DNA from: a virus
DNA length: 25,864 bases
Reading direction: 5' to 3' (one strand)
Virus record (IMG/VR): IMGVR_UViG_3300042326_000483
Span: 1 to 25,864 of that record
Shown here: positions 8,061-23,427 of the stretch, piece by piece
Layout of the letters: each line of letters opens with the position of its first letter
Numbering within the stretch: the first letter of the stretch is position 1
Program-made: the position numbers and the translations under genes
Notes under the pieces: model-generated
What the model was told of the DNA's origin: nothing
The model's input: the letters and a program-made list of their open reading frames with translations, nothing else
Database searches by the model: none

Positions 8061-9595
8061 TGGGATTCCTCGACAACATCCTGGCTAAGTTCCGGTCGGC
8101 CCCTGTCGACCGATACGAGGGCGCGTCCAACTCGATCCGCCGTTCCTTCCTGGACACCAGCTACACCTCGGTGCGGTTCGACGTCACTGCCTCGACCCGG
8201 CAGCAGATCGTCCGAAAGAGCCGATTCTTCGAGCAGAACAACGCGGTGATGAATCGCCTCGGTGACCTGTTCGAGAACTACACGGTCGGCAGCAACTTCT
8301 CGGTGCAGCCGGCTTCCTCGAATCCCGACTGGAATCTCCGAGCGAAGAAATGGTGGGATACCTGGAGCCGCTACCCTGACATCGGATCCCGGCAGTCTTT
8401 CGGAACTCTGATGAGCCTGGCCGCCCGTGGATGGTTCTACGATGGCGAATCTTTCCTTCTGCTGACCAAGGGAGACTCGGGCCGCCCCCGTCTTCAGCTC
8501 ATCGAACCTCAACAGGTGGCCACACCCACCGGCCAGGATCAATCTCCGGATATCTTCGATGGAGTCCGGTTTGATACCAAAACAGGCCGCGCTCTTTCCT
8601 ACTTTATTGGGCAGGAAACGAACCAAGGCCAACTCACCGAGATCCGGTCAATATCTTCCGACTCCATCGTCCACATCTACGAGGCCCAGCGTGCCGGCCA
8701 GCTCCGCGGCCTGCCATTCGTGGCGTGCGTCATTAACGACCTGCACGACCTGGACGACCTTCAGAAGCTGGAAATGGAATCCTGCAAACTCGCCTCCAGC
8801 GTGGCTCAGGTGATCAAGACCAGTTCCGGTGAGGTGCAGGCCAGCAGCCTCCGTTCTGGTGTGGTTGGAAGTCAGGGCACCGCCCAGACCTACTACGAGA
8901 ACGTATTCGGCAGCACGGTCAAGGTGCTGAAGTCCGGGGACGAGTTCGAGCAGTTCCAAGCCGACCGCCCCAACGTCAACATGCGCGAATACTGGCGCAG
9001 CCTGACCGAGAAGGTGTGCGCCGGCGTCGGCATCCCCTACGTCCTGGTGTTCCCGGAAGGAATGCAGGGCACGGTCTACCGTGGCGCCCTGGATATGTCG
9101 TCAGTGTGGTTCCGCAGCCGTCACCAGGTGATGGCCTCGGCCGCCCGTAGGATCTGGGAATATGTGATGGAATACGCCATCCGTACCGATCCCACCCTGC
9201 GAGACTCACCTGACGACTGGTACGAGATCGCCATCCAGGCCCCCAGGGCTCCGAATGTCGACGTCGGCCGCAACTCATCGGCTCAGCTCGCTGAGCTGAC
9301 CGCTGGCGTCACAACCTACGACGAGATCTACGGCGCCCGAGGCATCGACTGGCGATCAGCGCTGGAGGCCAAGGCGCAGCAGGCCCGCTACATTCAAGAC
9401 CTGGCTGCTAAGTACGGCCTCGATGTCTCGGAGATCTCGACCGCCCAGAAGCAACCAATCGCCCCGGAGTCTGCCGAGATGGCAGCCGAGGTGGAGCCCT
9501 CCGGGACAATGCCCGAGGAGATCCCAGCCCAACCCATCCAGGAGGTGGTCGCTGTGGTCAAGAAACGGAAAACCAGATCCAAGAAAACAGAATGA
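8060..9595 (+). CDS. Portal protein, lambda gpB-like
   Basis: This 511-aa protein forms the ring through which DNA enters and leaves the head. It shows typical lambda-type portal features: an early RSFLDTSYTSVRFDVTASTR region, QQIVRKSRFFEQNNAVMNRL, a middle MSLAARGWFYDGESFLLLTK, LQLIEPQQVATP, and a C-terminal segment with GIPYVLVFPEGMQGTVYRGA, close to the conserved clip/stem pattern of this family. The tail is basic (KKRKTRSKK) and preceded by a Pro/Glu-rich stretch. It overlaps the previous gene by one base and the protease-capsid gene by 4. Length is close to that of lambda gpB (533). Confidence 0.92.
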   Translation: MGFLDNILAKFRSAPVDRYEGASNSIRRSFLDTSYTSVRFDVTASTRQQIVRKSRFFEQNNAVMNRLGDLFENYTVGSNFSVQPASSNPDWNLRAKKWWDTWSRYPDIGSRQSFGTLMSLAARGWFYDGESFLLLTKGDSGRPRLQLIEPQQVATPTGQDQSPDIFDGVRFDTKTGRALSYFIGQETNQGQLTEIRSISSDSIVHIYEAQRAGQLRGLPFVACVINDLHDLDDLQKLEMESCKLASSVAQVIKTSSGEVQASSLRSGVVGSQGTAQTYYENVFGSTVKVLKSGDEFEQFQADRPNVNMREYWRSLTEKVCAGVGIPYVLVFPEGMQGTVYRGALDMSSVWFRSRHQVMASAARRIWEYVMEYAIRTDPTLRDSPDDWYEIAIQAPRAPNVDVGRNSSAQLAELTAGVTTYDEIYGARGIDWRSALEAKAQQARYIQDLAAKYGLDVSEISTAQKQPIAPESAEMAAEVEPSGTMPEEIPAQPIQEVVAVVKKRKTRSKKTE

Positions 9596-11748
9596 CCAAG
9601 ATCAACAACTGGCTTTCCTATCAACCCCGGGCCTCGGCCTCGGAGCCGGCCACCCTTCAGATCTTCGATCAGATCGGTGAAGACTGGTTTGGTGGATCCG
9701 GAATCTCGGCCAAGGCTTTCAGCCAGGCCCTGCAGGACGTCGGCCAAGGCCCTCTGGTGATCGAGATCAACAGCCCCGGCGGCAACGTCTGGGATGGCCT
9801 GGCCATCTACAATATGCTGCGAGGCCGGCAGGCACCCGTCACCACCCGGGTGGTCGGCATCGCTGCCTCGATTGCCTCAATCATTGCCCTGGCCGGTGAC
9901 ACTGTTGAGATCGCCGATGCGGCCTTGTTTATGATTCACGACCCCTCCGGAATGGTGGCAGGCACCTCGGAGGAAATGCGGAAGATGGCCGATGCCTTGG
10001 ATCAACACGCTGAGGTGCTGGCTGGTATCTATTCGAAGGTTACCGGCCGCCCGACCTCTCAGATCCGGGCTGCCATGAAAGAGGAGACCTGGTTCACCGC
10101 CCAGGAGGCCATCCAGTTCGGCCTGGCCGACAAGATGACCGAGGAGCAGATGGCTATCGCCGCCTGCTGGCACCCCCGGGCTGTCACCAAGACCGCCCCC
10201 GAGACTGTCCGAAGCAACCTTCGCCGCGGCCTGGAGCAGTACGCCGAAGGCCTCGCCGGTGATGGCCTTGAGAAGCAGACCGTCCTGGACGCCGAGGCCC
10301 TGGTGGCCGGTGAGGCGCCCACCGAGGACAAGATCCGCACAGCCAACGCCTGGTGGGGACGCAACGAGCGCTTCCTCGAAGCCGAGCCCAACACACCGGC
10401 CGACGTGGCAGCCAACCTTTGGGGAGGCGCCGCAGGCCGTGATTGGTTCAAAGCGCTTTATGCCCAGCTCGAAATCGAGGAGGGCGAGACCCCGGATGAA
10501 TCTCCGGAGGACAAACTTTCGACCGGCAGCACCGACGCTGCCGCCGATGGCGCGACAACCGCGCCGACATCACAGCAGACACCACACAACATGACTGAAT
10601 CAAACACCGTGGTGGCGGCCGCTCCTAGTGCGCCGTCCGCCCTCGACATCGACGCCATCGTGGCCAAGGCCGTTGCCGCCGCCATCAGCGCCAAGGCTAT
10701 CACCGCCGCCCCTGCCCCCGAGCCTCTCCGGCCGGTGATCCAGAACCTTGGCAACCCCCTCCTGGAGAAGCACAAGAGCCTCCGCGCCGGTGCCGAGCGC
10801 CAGCGCTTCCTGATCGAGAACCACAGCGAACTGCTCCGCCAGTCGGCGCTGATCGCTCCCCAGGCCGCAAACACCTTCGCCTCCGGCTTGGTTGTCGACT
10901 ATCTCGCCGACGCCGTGATCACCGTGATCAGCGCCAAGCTGGCCATGATCAGCAGCTTTACCCGCAACGTCGGCCTGGATAACCTCCGCCCCCGTGCGAC
11001 GGTGCAGGTCAAGAAGTTCACCACCGGCGACGCCGCGGTCGACAACGCCACCAACTTCGAGGATGGCGCCGCTAACCAGTCCACTCTGGCCGCCACCTCG
11101 GTGACGGTGAACCAGATCACCAAGACCTTCACGGTCACCCAGCAGGAGCTGAACCAGGGCTTCGCCCTCTCCGACCTGTCCCAGGGCTCCGCTGAGATCT
11201 TCGCCTTGGCCATCTCTAAGAAGGTGACCGCTGTCATGACCTCCGGCAACTACGGCGCCGGAACCACCATCGGAACGGCCGCCAACTTCGACAGCTCCGA
11301 CCTCCCGGCGATCCTGGCCCTGGCCAAGAACTACCGCCAGAAGCTGCTGTTGCTCGACGGTGGCCACCTGGCTCGCCTGATGTTCTCCGGTCAGTTCACC
11401 GCTGCCGCCGGCACCAACCCGTTCCCTGACAGCCGATATGGCCCGTTGAACAACGGTTTCTTTGGCTTCAACAACATCCTGGAGCAGAACGACTGGACCG
11501 GCGCCATCGCCAACACCGCCGGCTTCGTTTGCGGTCAGGACGCCATCGCGGTGGCCTCAGGCCTCCCGGTCGGAATGATCGCCGGCGAGTTCCTGGAGCA
11601 GCGCACGGTCGAGCTGTCCAACGGCCTCTCGGTCCTGCTGTCTGTCTGGTACAGCCGCGCCTCCCGCGCTCACATGGCGTCCTACGACATCATGTTCGGC
11701 GCCGCGGCCGCGGACACCACGCAGGCCGAGGTTCTCATCACCGCCTAA
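9592..11748 (+). CDS. Prohead protease - major capsid protein fusion
   Basis: A single 718-aa frame joins two usually separate head proteins. Residues about 20-195 are a ClpP-like serine protease: EINSPGGNVWDGLAIYNML, GIAASIASIIALAGD with likely nucleophile S93, and MIHDPSG with H116. Residues about 240-290 hold a small domain (KIRTANAWWGRNERF, LWGGAAGRDWF). A low-complexity Ala/Thr/Pro linker (about 300-370) probably acts as scaffold. Residues about 385-718 are the capsid protein (NFEDGAANQSTLAATSVTV, TFTVTQQELNQGFALSDL, LLLLDGGHLARLMF). Separate production is possible through an internal ATG at 10591 (M334) or by self-cleavage. The gene overlaps the portal gene by 4 bases. No frameshift or stop separates the parts. 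Confidence 0.88.
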   Translation: MTKINNWLSYQPRASASEPATLQIFDQIGEDWFGGSGISAKAFSQALQDVGQGPLVIEINSPGGNVWDGLAIYNMLRGRQAPVTTRVVGIAASIASIIALAGDTVEIADAALFMIHDPSGMVAGTSEEMRKMADALDQHAEVLAGIYSKVTGRPTSQIRAAMKEETWFTAQEAIQFGLADKMTEEQMAIAACWHPRAVTKTAPETVRSNLRRGLEQYAEGLAGDGLEKQTVLDAEALVAGEAPTEDKIRTANAWWGRNERFLEAEPNTPADVAANLWGGAAGRDWFKALYAQLEIEEGETPDESPEDKLSTGSTDAAADGATTAPTSQQTPHNMTESNTVVAAAPSAPSALDIDAIVAKAVAAAISAKAITAAPAPEPLRPVIQNLGNPLLEKHKSLRAGAERQRFLIENHSELLRQSALIAPQAANTFASGLVVDYLADAVITVISAKLAMISSFTRNVGLDNLRPRATVQVKKFTTGDAAVDNATNFEDGAANQSTLAATSVTVNQITKTFTVTQQELNQGFALSDLSQGSAEIFALAISKKVTAVMTSGNYGAGTTIGTAANFDSSDLPAILALAKNYRQKLLLLDGGHLARLMFSGQFTAAAGTNPFPDSRYGPLNNGFFGFNNILEQNDWTGAIANTAGFVCGQDAIAVASGLPVGMIAGEFLEQRTVELSNGLSVLLSVWYSRASRAHMASYDIMFGAAAADTTQAEVLITA
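10571..10593 (+). promoter_or_regulatory. Candidate internal translation start for the capsid part
   Basis: Inside the protease-capsid gene, the DNA before in-frame ATG 10591 is CACAGCAGACACCACACAAC, an A/C-rich, G-poor leader like those before genes at 364, 23568 and 23886 and unlike the GC-rich coding DNA around it. Initiation here would give a 385-aa scaffold-plus-capsid protein, comparable to the nested starts known in lambda (C/Nu3). This is inferred from leader resemblance only. Confidence 0.4.
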
Positions 11749-12503: not shown

Positions 12504-13322
12504 ATGGCAGACTCCAAAATTACGGCCTTAACGGCCATCTCAACAGTTGATCCAACGGCCGACCCGTTGGTTATCGTCGACGTCTCTGATACGTCAATGG
12601 CCGCCAGCGGCACGACTAAGAAGTCGACGATCAATCAACTCCTCGGAGCAGGCGGCACCGCCACCCTCGCCTCCGCCACCATCACCGGCGCGGCTACGGT
12701 GGGGACGACGCTGGGTGTGACAGGTGTTTCGACGTTTGCTGCTGGCACAGCACTGCTTCCCTCTCTCACAACGACCGGAGACGTAAACACTGGCATCTAC
12801 TATCCTGCGGCAGATACGTTTGCTGTCACTACAGGAGGCACTGAGCGTTATCGTGTAGACTCCGCTGGCAACGTCGGCGTGGGGGTTACGCCGAGTGCGT
12901 GGAATCTGTTGACTGGAAAAACAATTCAACTGCAAGCAAACGCCTCCATATCAGGGGGTTTAACTCATAGCACTTATTTGGGTCAGAACTGGTTTTATGA
13001 CGGTACAAATAGCAATTATATTGTAACGGGACGCGCTCTCCTTTACGAGCAGAATAAAAGCAGCGGGAACCATGCGTGGTACACTGCTGTATCTGGAACA
13101 GGTGGCACTACGGCTACAATGGTACAAGCAATGACCCTCGATGCCCTCGGCAACTTGCTCGTCGGTCTTACCACTGCCGGAACCACCGCTGCAAATACCA
13201 TTCAGATTGCCAACGGAACCGCTCCTACGGCCAACGTGACTGGCGGCCAACTCTACGTCGAAGCCGGTGCGCTGAAATACCGTGGTTCTTCCGGCACCGT
13301 CACCACAATCGCTAACGCCTAA
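12504..13322 (+). CDS. Tail-fibre-like virion protein, 272 aa
   Basis: The N-terminus ([20 protein letters not shown], then [20 protein letters not shown]) and the repeats [40 protein letters not shown] and [20 protein letters not shown] are typical of trimeric beta-helical phage fibres and appendages. The end ([20 protein letters not shown]) is also common in such proteins. It may contribute to host binding. Base composition drops in the middle (about 12690-13140) relative to the GC-rich ends, which suits exchange of the receptor-binding segment. No C-terminal chaperone domain is visible. It sits far from the distal tail genes, in the island between capsid and neck genes. Confidence 0.75.
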
Positions 13323-13333
13323 TCCATACCACC

Positions 13334-13756
13334 ATGATTACCATCCTCTGGATCATCGAACGCCTGTTGGTCAAACCGACCGAAGGCACTCTCACCGATG
13401 TCGTCATCACCGCCGACTGGAGGTGCAACGGCTCGCAGGATCAATACAGCGGCACCTGCTACGGCAGCGCGTCGTTCGCTCCGCCCACTGATTCGTTCAC
13501 GCCTTACGAGGATCTGACCGAGCAGCAGGTTCTCGGATGGTGCTACACCAATGGAGTCGATAAGACCGCTATCGAAGCGAACGTCACTGCGCAGATCGAG
13601 AATCAGATCAACCCGCCGGTCATCGCTCCGCCGCTGCCGTGGCTTCCTCCTGTTCCTCCGCCCCAACCCGAGATGATCGTGCCTCCGATGCTGCCGCAGG
13701 TTGAGCCGGTTTTGGTTGCGGAGCCGGCCACCGTTGTCGAAGCTCCTGCCGCATGA
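13334..13756 (+). CDS. Conserved-type phage protein with Pro-rich tail, 140 aa
   Basis: The N-terminal part (MITILWIIERLLVKPTEGTL, DVVITADWRCNGSQDQYSGT, YGSASFAPPTDSFTPYEDLT, EQQVLGWCY) matches a pattern I associate with small phage proteins of unknown function next to virion and lysis genes. Residues about 93-140 are Pro- and Val-rich (PPVIAPPLPWLPPVPPPQPE) and probably disordered, perhaps an adhesive tail. There is no signal peptide. It lies 11 bases after the fibre-like gene and overlaps the next small gene (ATGA). A virion accessory function is inferred from context only. Confidence 0.65.
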   Translation: MITILWIIERLLVKPTEGTLTDVVITADWRCNGSQDQYSGTCYGSASFAPPTDSFTPYEDLTEQQVLGWCYTNGVDKTAIEANVTAQIENQINPPVIAPPLPWLPPVPPPQPEMIVPPMLPQVEPVLVAEPATVVEAPAA

Positions 13757-16820: not shown

Positions 16821-17312
16821 ATGGCTAACGTACACGGAAATAAATATCTCTTTGGATCACCGGCGACCTTGGCAATGTACGACGCCGCCGGCGCCCTCAT
16901 TGTCACCGGCTACATCTCGCCCGAGATCGAAAGCTACGACATCACCGGCGAATGCGACACCGAGGAGGTGCGAAATAACAACGGCGAGGTGGTCGGCCAC
17001 ATCACCTACAACAACCGGCTGACCCTGACCGTCAATTTCGTTCCTGTTGGAACGAATGCCACGGCAGCCACTGCACTTAACGAGCGTCTGTACGGCTGCT
17101 CGTTGCCTCAAGGCAACGGGACTGTTGCGATCACCAACGCTCCAGTGATCAATGTCGCCGGTTACGCCGACGCCATCAACACCGGCAGCGGTGGTCGATG
17201 GATCTATGCCGGCGGTGGTTCAATCAAGACCACCCAGACCGGCAAAGCCACCGGGACGATCACTCTCAAGCGCTTTCCCGCCATCAGCGCTGGCGCGGCC
17301 ACCAACCTGTGA
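16821..17312 (+). CDS. Major tail tube protein-like, 163 aa
   Basis: This beta-rich protein lies in the tube position before the chaperone and tape-measure genes. Strand-like repeats include GALIVTGYISPEIESYDITG, EVVGHITYNNRLTLTVNFVP and GKATGTITLKRFPAIS, and the protein has short Gly/Asn turns. It probably polymerises as rings around the tape measure to form the tube through which DNA exits. The ATG follows a CAGACACCT leader without a Shine-Dalgarno motif. Its last codon region overlaps the GTG of the next gene (GTGA). Confidence 0.65.
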   Translation: MANVHGNKYLFGSPATLAMYDAAGALIVTGYISPEIESYDITGECDTEEVRNNNGEVVGHITYNNRLTLTVNFVPVGTNATAATALNERLYGCSLPQGNGTVAITNAPVINVAGYADAINTGSGGRWIYAGGGSIKTTQTGKATGTITLKRFPAISAGAATNL

Positions 17313-17875
17313 CCGCCCTGGCCGACATCCTGAACGCTACAGCCGAGCCCTGTCCTGTCGTGATGGGGCTCCGGCTGGTGCCGTTCAGCGTCGGCCATGC
17401 TTTGCTGCTGCATCGGATGGGCTCACCATTCGTCTGTGGTGGCAACCCGTCGGCCCAGGATCTTGTCGAGGTGGCTGTGGTTTGCAGCCAGCCGATTTAT
17501 GAATCGGTCAAGACGATGCGCTCCTGGCTGCGGTGGTTGCCGCTGCGGATCATGCGCCAGAAGGTTAAGAAGGCTGATCTTATCAAACAGTGCCAATCGG
17601 TTCAGGAATGGATAACCAAGCAGTCAGACTGCCCGGAGGTGTTGCGCCGTCCTGGATCTGGCCAGCGTTCGGCAACCATGCCTTGGCCGGAACGGATCCT
17701 GGTCGGCCTGGTCAACATTGGATTCAGTGAACAGACCGTTCTCAATATGCCGGTAACCGATGCCGAAAGGTTCTTCCTGACCAATGCCGAGCTGCACGGC
17801 CAGGTCGAGCTCTGGAGCAATGAGCAGGATGCCCTCTGGCGCTACGCTCAGGAACAAAGCACAATCAGGAACTGA
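17309..17875 (+). CDS. Tail assembly chaperone-position protein, 188 aa
   Basis: GTG 17309 overlaps the tube stop; an upstream in-frame ATG at 17198 lies inside the tube gene and is less likely. The product (TALADILNATAEPCPVVMGL..., RLVPFSVGHALLLHRMGSPF, VEVAVVCSQPIYESVKTMRS) follows a pattern I have seen in phage proteins encoded before the tape measure, where lambda-like phages place tail assembly chaperones. It is helical with several Cys residues. It ends one base before the ATG of the tape-measure gene. I found no convincing slippery site and no second frameshifted product. Confidence 0.6.
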   Translation: MTALADILNATAEPCPVVMGLRLVPFSVGHALLLHRMGSPFVCGGNPSAQDLVEVAVVCSQPIYESVKTMRSWLRWLPLRIMRQKVKKADLIKQCQSVQEWITKQSDCPEVLRRPGSGQRSATMPWPERILVGLVNIGFSEQTVLNMPVTDAERFFLTNAELHGQVELWSNEQDALWRYAQEQSTIRN

Positions 17876-17876
17876 A

Positions 17877-18860
17877 ATGGCCATCTTCTCACTCATTGCA
17901 AAGCTGGGCCTGGACGGCAGCTCATTCGAGGGCGGCCTCAAACGAGCCACCAGCATGACCGACAAATTCAGGTCAAGTGTCGGCGCTCAACTCGGTGGCG
18001 CCCTATCGGTGGCAGCCATCGGATCCTTTGCATCAAAGGTGATCGAGACAGCCGACGCCATCGGCGACCTTTCAGAGCAACTCAACATCAGCACCGACGA
18101 CGTTCAGCGCCTACAAGTGCTCGCAGGCCAAACAGGCGTCTCGTTTGAGGCTATGGCCAAGTCGATCACAAAAGTCAGCCAGGAGCGCCTAAAGGCTATT
18201 GAGGAAGGTGGGAAGGCCCGGGAATACTTCAGAACACTTGGCTTTTCAGTCACTGAACTAAACGAGAAGAGCCTCTCGAACATCGACTTAATTTCAAGGA
18301 TGGGCCAAGCGCACAAGGACGCAGGAAGCAGCGCCCAGACACAGGCAGCAATGATGGCCATCTTGGGCGAGGAAGCCTTCAAGGCAGCAGGTGCTATCTC
18401 AAAACTGTCAGAGCAAGGTCCAATTAAGCTGATAAACGAAGAGGAAATCGAAAACATCGGAAGGCTTGCAGATAGGCTTGATGAGTTAAAAAGGCAGTCA
18501 ATAGTTGCAGCAGCTCCAGAAGTGGCTTTCCTTGAAACTTACACTCAAAACCTGACCGCATTGCTTAGCGCAATGGAAAGAGGTGGGGGTCTCCCTGACT
18601 ACATAAGAGATTTACAAGCGGCAGCAATTCCCGCTTTGTATATGAACACAGTAGGTGACAAAAAGTTTGAAGCCTTGCCGTTGATAAACAATGGAAGACT
18701 TGGAACTGTTGACTCTAAAGTGAAACGCGAAATTTCAATGTTTACTGAGCCCGCCGCCCCAGGCTGGGTAAACACCATGGTCGGCCAGATTAAGATTCAA
18801 ACCAACGAGACCCGAGCAGTTCGCGTGAACACCGGAAGAACAGCTCAGGCTGTCGAATAA
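17877..18860 (+). CDS. Short tape-measure-like protein, 327 aa
   Basis: The protein starts MAIFSLIAKLGLDGSSFEGG and continues with LKRATSMTDKFRSSVGAQLG, the usual opening of tape-measure proteins, followed by a hydrophobic Gly/Ala segment (GALSVAAIGSFASKVIETAD), a helical region with ISTDDVQRLQVLAGQTGVSF, and long helices (AAAPEVAFLETYTQNLTALL). These fit a protein that sets tail length and sits inside the tube. At 327 residues it is short for the family and would predict a tail of roughly 50 nm by the usual length rule. ATG 17877 is used rather than an upstream extension into the chaperone gene. A stretch around 18230-18760 is AT-richer. Confidence 0.75.
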   Translation: MAIFSLIAKLGLDGSSFEGGLKRATSMTDKFRSSVGAQLGGALSVAAIGSFASKVIETADAIGDLSEQLNISTDDVQRLQVLAGQTGVSFEAMAKSITKVSQERLKAIEEGGKAREYFRTLGFSVTELNEKSLSNIDLISRMGQAHKDAGSSAQTQAAMMAILGEEAFKAAGAISKLSEQGPIKLINEEEIENIGRLADRLDELKRQSIVAAAPEVAFLETYTQNLTALLSAMERGGGLPDYIRDLQAAAIPALYMNTVGDKKFEALPLINNGRLGTVDSKVKREISMFTEPAAPGWVNTMVGQIKIQTNETRAVRVNTGRTAQAVE

Positions 18861-18861
18861 C

Positions 18862-19713
18862 ATGGCAACGATTCAGGGTAACTTAATCGCTCCGACACCG
18901 CCTCCGAGCAACACGCCGCTGACCTATGTAGAAGTCAGCCGTGGATACGACAACGTCGGCAATGGGCGGGTTGTCACACTGACATTCAAAGGCCCCAAGG
19001 ATGCCTTGCGGATCGCATCAGCCCAATGGGTAGCCCTGGGCGCCAAGTACAACATCCGTGAGGACGGCCCCTATTCAGAAGCCACCGTCACAATCGGCGG
19101 CAACTCCTACGACCCAGGCCTTCCGATTGAAGACCAGAGCATCCCGCAGGTGGGTGAACTGGCCGACATCCGCTACGAGTTCAGGACAGATTACCTCGAC
19201 GTGTCAGTGTTCGCTTTGCCTGCTGTCGACAAGGAGGCAAACTCGACAGGCAACCCGGCGCTTTACCGATTTATCATTGAGACAGCCATCAAGAACGGCG
19301 AAAGGCTACCAGGTATTCAGGAAAGCAACATCTCGACTCTGCCGTTAGCCCAGAAGGTCTGGCAGATGCTCTACCGAGGCCAGGACACCTTCCCGACGGC
19401 CCGAGTCAGTCTGACCAGGATCGCAACCTTCAGCGGCAACCTCGGGCTGCCTCAAGTTCCCAACGGCATACCTCCGGTCTACACTAGGGAGTCATTCGCT
19501 TTTAATTGGAACCTTCCGTTCTCAGTGGTCCAAATGCTTCCAAATACCCCAATCGACCCAAACACAGGACAAATTCAGGCGCCAGTTGGCACTGCTTGGG
19601 GCTGGAAGCAAACTAACTATTCGACAAGCCTGATCACCAAGACCAACCAGGTCGAACAGGTTATTGCTTGGACCTTTGCCCCTTACGACACTCTCGTTTA
19701 CCCCTTCATCTAA
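18862..19713 (+). CDS. Distal tail or virion structural protein, 283 aa, unknown family
   Basis: The gene follows the tape-measure gene after one base, in the position of distal-tail or baseplate hub proteins. The product is beta-rich and soluble: TYVEVSRGYDNVGNGRVVTL, FKGPKDALRIASAQWVALGA, SEATVTIGGNSYDPG and YEFRTDYLDVSVFALPAV are strand-turn patterns; LPLAQKVWQMLYRGQDTFPT looks helical. No cysteine motif, protease or glycosidase site is seen. It probably forms part of the tail tip. I do not recognise a named family. Confidence 0.6.
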   Translation: MATIQGNLIAPTPPPSNTPLTYVEVSRGYDNVGNGRVVTLTFKGPKDALRIASAQWVALGAKYNIREDGPYSEATVTIGGNSYDPGLPIEDQSIPQVGELADIRYEFRTDYLDVSVFALPAVDKEANSTGNPALYRFIIETAIKNGERLPGIQESNISTLPLAQKVWQMLYRGQDTFPTARVSLTRIATFSGNLGLPQVPNGIPPVYTRESFAFNWNLPFSVVQMLPNTPIDPNTGQIQAPVGTAWGWKQTNYSTSLITKTNQVEQVIAWTFAPYDTLVYPFI

Positions 19714-19731
19714 CAACCGACACTTACCTCT

Positions 19732-20091
19732 ATGGCAGACGAAATTCAAATGACCGCCCGGCTGTACGCTTCCAAGAACGGAGCCTACTTGCCCTCAGTA
19801 ACCTACACCAAGAGCGCCACCATGGTCGGCACCGACATGGGCTCTCAAACTCAGATTATCGGCCTGACCGTCGAGGCTCTCGACGTGCCGGTCGACGTAA
19901 GCAGCCCCTACAAACTGCTGATCAGCAACCTGGACAACACCAACTATGTCGAACTCGGTTTCGTCAGCGGCACCTACACGATGCGGATCCCGGCCGGTGA
20001 GACCCTGCTGATCCCCTACGTCAGCGCCACCCTCTACCTGCTGGCCAACACCTCCGCGGTGACCGTGCAGGCCACCTTCTGCGAGATCTAA
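19732..20091 (+). CDS. Small virion protein, duplicated copy 1, 119 aa
   Basis: The product (MADEIQMTARLYASKNGAYL...) is a beta-rich domain; segments include SPYKLLISNLDNTNYVELGF and RIPAGETLLIPYVSATLYLL, which resemble small jelly-roll or Ig-like virion proteins. About half the residues match the next gene at 20104, and both end in FCEI. The two genes are therefore a tandem duplication. The leader is CAACCGACACTTACCTCT, without a Shine-Dalgarno motif. A virion surface or tail-tip role is inferred from position and fold. Confidence 0.7.
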   Translation: MADEIQMTARLYASKNGAYLPSVTYTKSATMVGTDMGSQTQIIGLTVEALDVPVDVSSPYKLLISNLDNTNYVELGFVSGTYTMRIPAGETLLIPYVSATLYLLANTSAVTVQATFCEI

Positions 20092-20103
20092 CCGACCAAC
20101 CCT

Positions 20104-20460
20104 ATGGCAAACGAAGTCGAGATGAGCGCCCGGCTGTACGCCAGCAAGGGCGGCGCCGTGATCAATTCGCAGTCCTACAGCACGGTGGCCAACATGACCG
20201 GCACCGACATGGGGCAACAGACGCAGGTGGTCGGAACGACCGACGAGGCCCTAGACCTCACCGCTGACCTGGGTACGCCCTACCGGCTCCTGGTAGTCAA
20301 CCTGGATCTAGTCAACCCGGTCTCCATCGGGCCTTCCTCGCCGTACTCGTTTCAAATCCCGGCCGGTCAGTTCATCCTGATCCCCTGGGTCGATGCGACG
20401 ATGTACGTCAAAGCCTCCAACAGCCCCGTCAAGATCTTCGCCCAGTTCTGCGAGATTTAA
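20104..20460 (+). CDS. Small virion protein, duplicated copy 2, 118 aa
   Basis: This is the paralogue of the preceding gene: MANEVEMSARLYASKGGAVI, GTDMGQQTQVVGTTDEALDL, YRLLVVNLDLVNPVSIG, QIPAGQFILIPWVDATMYV and the ending FCEI align along the full length with one gap. The two genes also share 15 identical bases (CGCCCGGCTGTACGC) in the same codons. The duplicates differ mainly in loops, suggesting they form different rings or positions in the virion, or a heteromeric complex. The start follows the preceding stop by 12 bases with an A/C-rich leader (CGACCAACCCT). Confidence 0.7.
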   Translation: MANEVEMSARLYASKGGAVINSQSYSTVANMTGTDMGQQTQVVGTTDEALDLTADLGTPYRLLVVNLDLVNPVSIGPSSPYSFQIPAGQFILIPWVDATMYVKASNSPVKIFAQFCEI

Positions 20461-20463
20461 GCC

Positions 20464-20673
20464 ATGCCCCTGCAACTGCCATCCAAGCTATCGGAGCGCG
20501 GCCTAAAGGCAGACCATGCCCGGGCCATCAATCAATTGATCGAGGCCGTGCGCCGGGTCCAGCTTGTCGCTGGGCCTGGCCAGCGGGTCGAGCAGAATGC
20601 CAACGGCACGACGCTCAAGACTGCGGTCGGCTCAAGTACAGTGCAGACCGCCGAGGAATCCTGGTTCTACTGA
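20464..20673 (+). CDS. Small helical virion-region protein, 69 aa
   Basis: The product starts MPLQLPSKLSERGLKADHAR and has an amphipathic helix (AINQLIEAVRRVQLVAG), then a low-complexity strand end (NGTTLKTAVGSSTVQ). The short N-terminal helix and Gly/Thr-rich strand resemble linkers found at fibre or tail-tip assembly points, but no family is recognised. It is 3 bases downstream of the duplicated pair and 3 bases upstream of the 916-aa gene, so it is co-expressed with them and may be an assembly or attachment partner of the large protein. Confidence 0.6.
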   Translation: MPLQLPSKLSERGLKADHARAINQLIEAVRRVQLVAGPGQRVEQNANGTTLKTAVGSSTVQTAEESWFY

Positions 20674-20676
20674 CCC

Positions 20677-23427
20677 ATGCCATTTGCCACAGACCGCCGG
20701 GAGAAGATGTTCACGGCGGCCAACCTGAACAGCCTCTACAACCGATTTGACCAGAAGGTCTACAGGACGCTGAATGGCGTCAGCCCTCTGATGTCGAACT
20801 CGACATCGGGTGTGTGGCAGGGGCTTTATCCTTACGGCGTCTGGTACGTTTACCGTACAGATCCAGACACCTGCAAACGCCTTAAGGACAACGGCGATGT
20901 GCCGAGTCCAAGCATTCCAGGCATCGGAATTTACTGGAGAAACGAGCACAGCCAGCAGGCAGCCAGAATCGAGTTGTCGAAGCTGGAGAACAAATACTTG
21001 GACGTCACCGGCGGCCAGGTCTATGTCGACCGATACGTCACCGGCGGCGATCCGTTTACCTGTGATGTCGGCAAGATTCACTATTCCTTCGAGGTGCTGA
21101 CCAGGACGGTCAATGACATCGAATACAACGTGCACCTTGGCTACGACTCAACGTCACCAGGGCTTGTTTCCTACGTCCGCGGCAGCCTCGGGCCATCGAC
21201 CCCAACCCTGCCTCCTGGTCGGATCCACAAACACCGACTGGCTGTTGCAGAGATCGCTCTTGAAGGGCCAACCGAGTTCAGGATTCTCAACACTTACCAG
21301 CGTTACGACTGCTGGCGGGTCCACAACTGCGGCACCAGCACGGTGACCGTGTTCCTCCAGAATCCAGATGGCGGATCGGACAGACACTCAGTGCCACCTG
21401 CCCAATGCCGATCTTTCAGACGCAAACCAGATGGCACCTGGCCGGCGCCGATGTTCTATTTCTTTCCGTATTTCACCGGGGACATCCCCTTCCTGGCTGA
21501 AGGCCCACCATCCTGGGCGGTTGCCAACACTTCTGAATTTCTGGCTTTAGAGCGGTCGGCCCAGGCCAACAACGTGGCCAACCCGTTTGTCATGTTTGAG
21601 TGGCGCCGGGTAATGTTTGCGGTGCACGACCCGCATCTGCCCTACGATATCCGGCAGATTTACACCGGTTACTATGCCGACCCCAGCAATGCAAACACCA
21701 CCATCGGTGACGCTGTGTTCAACTGGGGGCGAGCCCGGATCACCTACTCGAACGCCAACAACGATGTTTTCGACGATCAGATCCGGATTTTCTCCAGCAC
21801 CCAAAGCCTCCCGGAGCGCCTTAGAGCCATTGGCCTGACCGTTGTCGAGAACGCTAACAATCTGACCCTGACCAGTCAGCGCGGTGTGATCCGGATCTAC
21901 CCCATCGACGCCAACATCTTCACCACGCCGTCGGCCCCATATTGGGAAATCGGCAGCAGCCCGGTCAGCATCTCGACTTACTACCCGGTGCAGTACACCA
22001 CCGAGAACGGAACCGTCACCTGGCAGGCTGGAAACACGCCGACCATCTTCGAGACAATGCGGACCCTACGGCGCCGGGTGGCCGTAGAGGCCGGATTCCT
22101 AAACAACTACGACGATGCGGTCGACATCATCGAGGAAAAGGTCAGCCAGGTGACGCTGACCCCAATGGGCCTGATGTGCCAGGCAGCCACCAATAGCATC
22201 ATCGTCGGCAGCCTGTTTGAAAACTTCCACTCCACCGCAACACCGACAACGCTCTGGACTGATCGGCGGCCGGTCAATTTCGGGGCAGGCGCTGACTTCA
22301 ACTGGGCCTACACATCAGGAACCAAAGTTTTCTATCTCTCAGTGCCTGGGGCCGCCGTGACGCTGCAATGGGCCAACGTGATGCCGGCGCGTAATCTGGC
22401 TGCACCGACTACCGTCGAGGCTGTAAACCGCGCCTTCGTGCCTCCTGGAGGCCCTTGGGGCTTCTCAAGTTCAGTCTACGACTTCGAGCTGGTACGCTGT
22501 TTTGAGATTGACCTAGCCAACGGCGTGGACGACCGGCCTTGGGGCGCAGACTTCTGGGAAAACAAGTGGGGCGGCCCCGGAGGCGTGGATGCCTCTGTCA
22601 GGATCCCAGGCAGCCCTAACAAGACGTCCCAGTTCGCTTACATACCGACCGCGGCAAACTCATCGTTTGTCGACCTGGTACCCGCCGGCACCGATGACAT
22701 CTTCAAAGATCGGCGAGGCGCCAGCTTTGCCCACAGCGTGCCGTTCCTATCAGCCAGCTTCAGCCCTCAGCAACAGGATGGACTGACAGACATCCGATGG
22801 ACTGGAGGCGTCGAGCAGGTCGGATTCGATGTGCCTTACACCGAGGTGGGCAACCCCTACCTCCCTGGCGGTGGCCCATTCTTTCACAAGATCCCCAAGT
22901 CAGTATGGCTTTGGAGCCTGCTGGAATGGTCTGTCAGATCCTGGACGAGATCAGTGCCTCTCGGCCTGGCTCAAGACTGCACGCCAGTCAGGGACGCCTT
23001 CAATGGCGCCGCAGCCAACAACGGCCTTGTGATCAGCTCGCTGCTGCTGGGCACCACCGGCTACGAGCCCGACTTTGATCTGGACGTCTACTACCTCAAC
23101 GAGGCGAGCCATGACATTCTGGTGGCCAATGGCTGCCCTTGTTTCAATAGTCAGGACTCAGGTGGGAATGACTATTGGTTCGTGCCGGCCCAGAACCTTC
23201 AGACTTACTGCCGAGAACAAGGTTTTGTGGCCAACGACTTCAGCACTGAGAACGGCCAACCCACCGAGAGCCCACCGGTTGCAGCCACAGCCATCAGGCC
23301 GTATCGCACCTACAGCCAGGGCGAGCAGGTCGAGGCCGCCAGTTACTTCGATGTCGGTGCAGGTTACGAGCGTTACGAATGGCTGCGGTATGTCGACCTG
23401 CGGCTGCCTAATGAGCTGAGCGCTTAG
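20677..23427 (+). CDS. Large virion protein, 916 aa, unknown; likely tail tip or receptor-binding
   Basis: This is the largest gene in the window. The N-terminus (FATDRREKMFTAANLNSLYN...) is followed by aromatic- and Pro/Gly-rich beta segments, for example GVWQGLYPYGVWYVYRTDP, PMFYFFPYFTGDIPFLAEGP and WGADFWENKWGGPGG. Around residue 475-490 there is a helical stretch (LNNYDDAVDIIEEKVSQVTL). No signal, protease, lyase or carbohydrate-cleaving motif stands out. Its place at the end of the tail operon and its size suggest a tail-tip or host-contact protein. The stop TAG is followed by a non-coding gap with inverted repeats. Confidence 0.65.
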   Translation: MPFATDRREKMFTAANLNSLYNRFDQKVYRTLNGVSPLMSNSTSGVWQGLYPYGVWYVYRTDPDTCKRLKDNGDVPSPSIPGIGIYWRNEHSQQAARIELSKLENKYLDVTGGQVYVDRYVTGGDPFTCDVGKIHYSFEVLTRTVNDIEYNVHLGYDSTSPGLVSYVRGSLGPSTPTLPPGRIHKHRLAVAEIALEGPTEFRILNTYQRYDCWRVHNCGTSTVTVFLQNPDGGSDRHSVPPAQCRSFRRKPDGTWPAPMFYFFPYFTGDIPFLAEGPPSWAVANTSEFLALERSAQANNVANPFVMFEWRRVMFAVHDPHLPYDIRQIYTGYYADPSNANTTIGDAVFNWGRARITYSNANNDVFDDQIRIFSSTQSLPERLRAIGLTVVENANNLTLTSQRGVIRIYPIDANIFTTPSAPYWEIGSSPVSISTYYPVQYTTENGTVTWQAGNTPTIFETMRTLRRRVAVEAGFLNNYDDAVDIIEEKVSQVTLTPMGLMCQAATNSIIVGSLFENFHSTATPTTLWTDRRPVNFGAGADFNWAYTSGTKVFYLSVPGAAVTLQWANVMPARNLAAPTTVEAVNRAFVPPGGPWGFSSSVYDFELVRCFEIDLANGVDDRPWGADFWENKWGGPGGVDASVRIPGSPNKTSQFAYIPTAANSSFVDLVPAGTDDIFKDRRGASFAHSVPFLSASFSPQQQDGLTDIRWTGGVEQVGFDVPYTEVGNPYLPGGGPFFHKIPKSVWLWSLLEWSVRSWTRSVPLGLAQDCTPVRDAFNGAAANNGLVISSLLLGTTGYEPDFDLDVYYLNEASHDILVANGCPCFNSQDSGGNDYWFVPAQNLQTYCREQGFVANDFSTENGQPTESPPVAATAIRPYRTYSQGEQVEAASYFDVGAGYERYEWLRYVDLRLPNELSA

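Follow-up and report, generated by a model that had tools for sequence, protein, structure and literature searches.

A tandem pair of small, predicted jelly-roll genes in a group of uncultivated phages: one old duplication with a slowly and a faster evolving copy

The window analysed here is a 25,864-nucleotide stretch of viral DNA (IMG/VR record IMGVR_UViG_3300042326_000483, positions 1 to 25,864). It contains two small adjacent genes, A and B, which come after the tape measure gene and a 283-aa protein and are followed by a 69-aa ORF and a 916-aa protein (Table 1). Both ORFs are intact and end in stop codons, and they form a real tandem pair, as the initial annotation had stated. Their products had been described as about half identical, and BLASTP aligns them with 63 of 119 positions identical, 87 of 119 similar and one gap (E 7e-45, for a single comparison). 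The pair scores 319 in local alignment, where the highest score among 2000 shuffles of B was 63. Over the aligned codons the DNA is 62% identical (219/354). The previously noticed 15-base identical stretch (at 19755 and 20127) is the longest DNA word common to the two genes, and the FCEI ending is indeed found in both products. Among distinct alleles the ending is FCE in 48 of 48 for A and [FY]CE in 43 of 43 for B. The sole cysteine of A, at residue 117, lies within this ending; that of B is at 116. The motif NLDxTN[YF]VE[LIVM]G is present in A (NLDNTNYVELG) and missing from B (NLDLVNPVSIG).

Table 1. Genes and spacer around the tandem pair in the window.
Feature	Position	Strand	Description
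Tape measure protein, 358 aa	17784..18860	+	PHROG tail length tape measure matches, best E 6.7e-12
283-aa protein (g283) between tape measure and A	18862..19713	+	No PHROG or Pfam match
Gene A	19732..20091	+	119 aa; predicted N-terminal beta hairpin and jelly-roll barrel; slowly evolving copy
Spacer between A and B	20092..20103	+	12 bases
Gene B	20104..20460	+	118 aa; tandem paralogue of A; faster evolving copy
69-aa ORF (g69) behind B	20464..20673	+	
916-aa protein (g916)	20677..23427	+	No PHROG match; weak DUF7077 match below curated cut-off

The spacer between A and B measures 10-12 bases in all 138 loci compared (some contigs counted twice). A fusion of A and B by stop-codon read-through is rejected as the normal product, since the two genes are out of frame in 38 of these 138 loci. 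Folding of the joined product gave a pTM of 0.45 and a pLDDT below 50 for residues 121-157, from a shallow alignment of the B half and with a method not intended for complexes. The leader regions (19712-19731 and 20084-20103 in the window, and those of relatives) are rich in adenine and cytosine. Shine-Dalgarno-like words occur in the 20 bases before the start in 0 of 152 loci for A and 5 of 141 for B (some contigs counted twice), and given this scarcity the host of these phages might initiate translation by another mode.

A structural model of A, built from 72 aligned sequences (pLDDT 91.2, pTM 0.80), has N-terminal strands at residues 4-15 and 18-30, then seven strands of at least 3 residues, with a barrel at approximately 31-119. 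As a prediction, the fold class of a jelly-roll behind a long N-terminal hairpin is fairly safe; it leaves the function of A unspecified. The best solved structures among the matches listed are jelly-rolls and cupins, with Ena1B at Z 9.2, the PM2 spike P1 at Z 8.9 and many cupins at Z near 7-8. These scores are middling and the matches generic, and a Foldseek search of the A model against the PDB returned no match below E 0.001. Ena1B, an endospore appendage pilin (7a02), is a jelly-roll with an N-terminal extension that aligns with A over 83 residues, but at only 16% identity. In Ena pilins, N-terminal cysteines link the subunits by disulfides, whereas A and B, with their single C-terminal cysteine, have no cysteine of this type. 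The PM2 spike P1 (2vve, 80 residues aligned) and the HFTV1 turret (8qpg, Foldseek rank 32, E 1.6e-2) are jelly-rolls that resemble A at the level of fold, again with middling scores. Predicted viral structures gave 61 matches below E 0.001, the best 50 of which are uncharacterised or unnamed; three are proteins from one virus, NIOZ-UU157. When the strands of the A model are laid over the alignment, the proposal that A and B have diverged mainly in loops does not hold: 38 of 70 strand positions are identical versus 25 of 49 elsewhere, and the most diverged long segment is itself a strand, the second of the N-terminal hairpin (residues 18-30, 4 of 13 identical).

Both copies have been retained in relatives. 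When IMG/VR was scanned with A, 230 stretches proved to encode a relative. Of the best 80 of these, each from a distinct contig, 79 have the second copy, which the contig end truncates in a few; the sole exception, L025, ends about 40 bases past A. A second scan, with an A+B profile, added the best 80 of 234 stretches, partly from the same contigs. With a profile of the wider family, every one of the group's 29 long records (25.9-32.5 kb, window included) was found to have exactly two copies. Among contigs outside the group 31 of 32 contain a single copy, and one (G038, from L204) contains four in tandem; expressed as distinct loci, many of which are pieces of contigs, the figures are one copy in 93 of 94 and four in L204. 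The four members in L204 (3848-5297, minus strand; two strong, two weak) lie directly upstream of genes for terminase and a portal-like protein. In a tree of 77 rows, where columns are few and many forks unresolved, A and B together form a clade with a support of 99.9, and B forms one with 98.7 and A one with only 74. The three groups on this tree need 2 changes, the minimum possible, as a single duplication would give. No sign of gene conversion between A and B was seen, the copies falling apart in the tree. Sequence, copy counts and tree thus support a single old duplication in the ancestor of the phage group, followed by evolution at asymmetric rates.

The wider family, as collected here, comprises proteins of about 120 aa from uncultivated phages, often with the motif given above. 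A motif scan listed at least 52 ORFs outside the A/B group (one of them, L237, is a cut copy of A), and the motif is not required for membership, outsiders such as L276 also being without it. A later scan with the family profile confirmed 392 stretches, of which the best 80 were kept. Outsiders are homologous to A over the full length at 23-45% identity and have a common start of the MANE/MADE type; of those listed, only L313 has an A-like ending (ICEA). Profile A2, which contains both window proteins, matches them at full length (A, E 6.7e-50; B, E 4.1e-46). Single window-protein queries matched the outsiders G031 (3e-19), G033 (1e-18), G056 (1e-22) and G044 (2e-10), and the four G038 members at E 4e-12 to 9e-4.

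Library searches were largely negative. At E <= 0.001 neither PHROG nor Pfam gave a match to A, and B reached only phrog_14754 at 0.053; ten outsider members had nothing below E 0.013 in PHROG or below 0.048 in Pfam. A tblastn search of 50,697 annotated phage records with A, B and five outsiders found nothing at limits of E 0.01 or 1. With B as query, 0 of 76 stretches of bacterial genome contigs were confirmed. A narrower family profile on such contigs confirmed 5 of 10 stretches as distant relatives, on metagenome-assembled contigs from Dehalococcoidia, Lentisphaerae, Planctomycetota (two) and an unassigned bacterium. Fusion of the domain to longer proteins was not found among 2771 ORFs of at least 190 aa in the collected loci (E 0.1).

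Conservation was compared with 41 gene queries in eight genomes, picked from the 28 of 30 with a match to the major capsid protein (MCP). Gene A has the highest mean identity of all 41, at 90%. In the five divergent genomes A is 91-92% identical and ranks first in four; in the fifth, G014, the 58-aa g58 reaches 97%. Here terminase is at 71-75%, portal at 71-72%, the MCP part at 69-83%, B at 60-65%, g69 at 58-64%, g283 at 42-46%, g916 at 36-47% and g163 at 36-39%. In the three closer genomes (G007, G012 and G023) A is not first: B is at 97, 92 and 94% versus 92, 91 and 80% for A, and in G023 many genes exceed A. Six divergent loci whose A allele is short (see below) gave pN values of 0.085-0.123 in A and 0.236-0.265 in B. 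Fourfold differences in A amount to 37/56 to 42/57 in these loci, near saturation, and pS is 0.74-0.81 for A against 0.79-0.87 for g283. Divergence at the fourfold sites of A thus almost reaches that in adjacent genes, so that recent transfer is rejected as the cause of its constancy, and with it constraint at the nucleotide level. Selection on the protein, and not recent exchange, holds A constant; these substitution patterns establish that A is kept almost fixed at the protein level and that B evolves faster.

The 48 distinct A alleles fall into two classes, 42 short (119 aa) and 6 long (124 aa). Identity is 85-99% within the short class, 89-98% within the long class and 76-86% between classes. 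Fixed differences are confined to residues 45-47, 75-82 and 97-104, with none in residues 1-44. Each class is represented in both subclades of the phage group. Of 60 distinct A/B pairs, 5 combine the long A with a 118-aa B and 1 combines it with a 121-aa B. Pairwise comparisons show how A is distributed. L134 and L102, from different subclades, have long A proteins that are 94% identical, while fourfold sites differ at 42 of 60, B is at 65% and g283 at 43%. G023 (long A) and G009 (short A) are 99% identical in portal and MCP, 97% in g916 and 96% in both B and g69, but only 78% in A; other loci that differ between the two are g272 (40%), g140 (41%), the SLT gene (66%), the tape measure (76%) and g163 (84%). 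Conversely, A is 100% identical between G009 and G008 despite 55% in g163, 31% in the tape measure and 59% in g283. In its type, A thus follows neither the capsid nor the tail tube candidate, the tape measure, B or the 916-aa protein. One reading is an ancient two-type polymorphism of a virion surface protein, in which near-frozen loop classes are swapped by recombination between nearly identical phages and maintained in both subclades as a trans-lineage balanced dimorphism by two conserved host targets or recognition systems, while B diverges; we consider this possible but rather doubtful.

The location of the family gene in other phages was surveyed at 94 distinct outsider loci, where same-strand genes up to 2.5 kb away were marked if their products resembled reference proteins. 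This scripted marking is incomplete; L242, for example, was entered without its portal although one is present. On the head side, the gene lies between portal and protease/MCP in 29 loci, next to portal in 4 and before protease/MCP in 6. On the tail side, it follows the tape measure in 14 and the 270-350-aa follower of the tape measure in 8. It precedes terminase or portal in 3 loci, has another location in 5 and is unassigned in 25. PHROG matches gave portal, protease and MCP around L218 and L230, portal and protease around L203, and tape measure families upstream of the gene in L311, L313, L214 and L306; PHROG confirmed no tape measure before L288 and gave no match around L303 or for single neighbours of L222 and L313. 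The sister phages G031 and G056 are collinear (portal 82%, connectors 57-88%, a 233-aa protein 73%, tape measure 39%, next protein 52%), and each has one family copy, these being 58% identical to each other. In G031 the copy lies between portal and protease, with none in the tail cluster; in G056 portal and protease are adjacent and the copy is in the tail cluster. BLAST found no counterpart in G056 for the protease and MCP of G031, so that a head cassette may have carried the gene along when it moved.

The initial annotation had called A and B duplicates of a small virion gene. The duplication is borne out by sequence and copy counts; a virion location is plausible, judging from operon and gene position and the predicted fold class. 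The annotation had also suggested, tentatively, a two-component ring or surface layer next to the 916-aa protein. Two findings speak against a fixed role there: g916 is far less conserved than A in the divergent genomes, and family members in many other phages are located in the head cluster. The shifting gene position, together with the independence of A in type, argues against a part fitted to the capsid, the tail tube candidate, the tape measure or the 916-aa protein.

We tentatively favour, with confidence a little short of even, the view that A and B are exposed accessory virion proteins, the decisive contact being with the protein itself or with a conserved host molecule. A small jelly-roll protein, carried singly by most other phages with the family, would have been duplicated in the ancestor of the group, after which A was held nearly fixed in protein sequence and B changed faster. 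Hairpin and barrel would dock the protein on the virion, probably as oligomers, and the loops of the barrel would contact a ligand. The decisive contact of A is probably itself or a conserved host surface molecule and not a fast-evolving phage protein, since its loop classes follow none of the protein types named above; B may have taken over, or added, a second contact. The near-constancy of A suggests contact with something that itself hardly changes, and self-contact alone could explain it too. Host-binding proteins are usually more variable than A, which counts against this view, as do the small share of long alleles, the exceptions in the conservation ranking and the generic, middling fold matches.

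The main rival, which we regard as rather unlikely, is that the pair serves as capsid cement or decoration, comparable to the jelly-roll cement protein of phage BPP-1, with A and B stabilising the head at two types of lattice site. Gene position speaks for it, the family gene separating portal from protease/MCP in 29 of the 94 outsider loci and lying next to portal or ahead of protease/MCP in 10 more, among PHROG-confirmed head families in the cases named above, and one outsider having its four tandem copies directly before terminase. There is also precedent for a jelly-roll cement on a head of the HK97 type: according to PMC3863775, Bbp16 of BPP-1 is a 140-aa jelly-roll protein of a tailed phage, auxiliary to such a capsid; A and B are likewise small, and a jelly-roll is predicted for A. 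However, no sequence match to Bbp16 emerged, and in the window the pair is not beside the MCP gene but some 8 kb away from it, past the tape measure. Conservation of A exceeds that of the MCP part in each of the five divergent genomes, and between G023 and G009 the loop class of A changes at 99% identity of the MCP. The family profile found no significant match among the sequences of solved chains in the PDB, the best (E 0.28) not being a phage cement protein. Bbp16 is not among the 50 structure matches listed for A, which excludes neither it nor any other fold family missing from that list. A literature search found nothing that pairs a tandem duplication with a phage head decoration protein.

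Another rival places the ring of the initial annotation at the tail: A and B would build a hetero-oligomeric ring or collar on the tail tip, flanked by the 283-aa and 916-aa proteins. This would suit the gene order of the window and the 22 of 94 outsider loci with the tape measure or its follower within 2.5 kb upstream, including the four with confirmed tape measure families. It is improbable in view of the divergence of g283 and g916 beside a nearly constant A, the identity of A between G009 and G008 across different g283 and tape measure proteins, and the sister phage G031, which has the gene in the head cluster and not in the tail cluster; the low pTM of the read-through fold lends it no support, though the B alignment was shallow and the method is weak for complexes. 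That A and B act outside the particle, as assembly factors or as late-infection proteins acting on the host, is a very remote prospect: it is structural-cluster position alone that ties them to the virion, but all-beta jelly-rolls and tandem copies, here predicted for A and found fourfold in one phage, are more typical of structural proteins.

If A, as in the favoured reading, binds a conserved host molecule, it would point to a receptor that is stable and to a switch between two host-range types, recognisable from sequence. Should A be a head protein, the location of the gene at the head in one sister phage and at the tail in the other would mean that gene order does not fix the place of the product. 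Either way, A and B show cleanly, and in many natural replicates, how two copies can evolve asymmetrically once duplicated, and a phage protein conserved beyond capsid, portal and terminase is unusual, all the more one without name or function in the libraries searched.

Several further observations concern the neighbouring genes. Homology of g283 to the proteins in the same place in other phages was sought and none was demonstrated. The tail cluster g163/tape measure/g283 (16821-19713), which differs strongly between G009 and G008 while the two phages share 98-100% identity in portal, MCP, A, B and g916, appears from these sequences to have been exchanged as a block. Tail assembly chaperone genes often overlap the start of the tape measure gene in another frame, and in the window a 225-aa ORF (17198-17875) overlaps the tape measure start in this way. 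Behind the head genes, g272 and g140 (12504-13756) are likely a fibre or host-range locus, in view of their low identity between G023 and G009 at 99% in portal and MCP. Finally, a ClpP-type head protease and the MCP are apparently fused in one 718-aa ORF (9592-11748), the matches of which in G028 and G029 are split in two pieces, 1-191 and 307-718.
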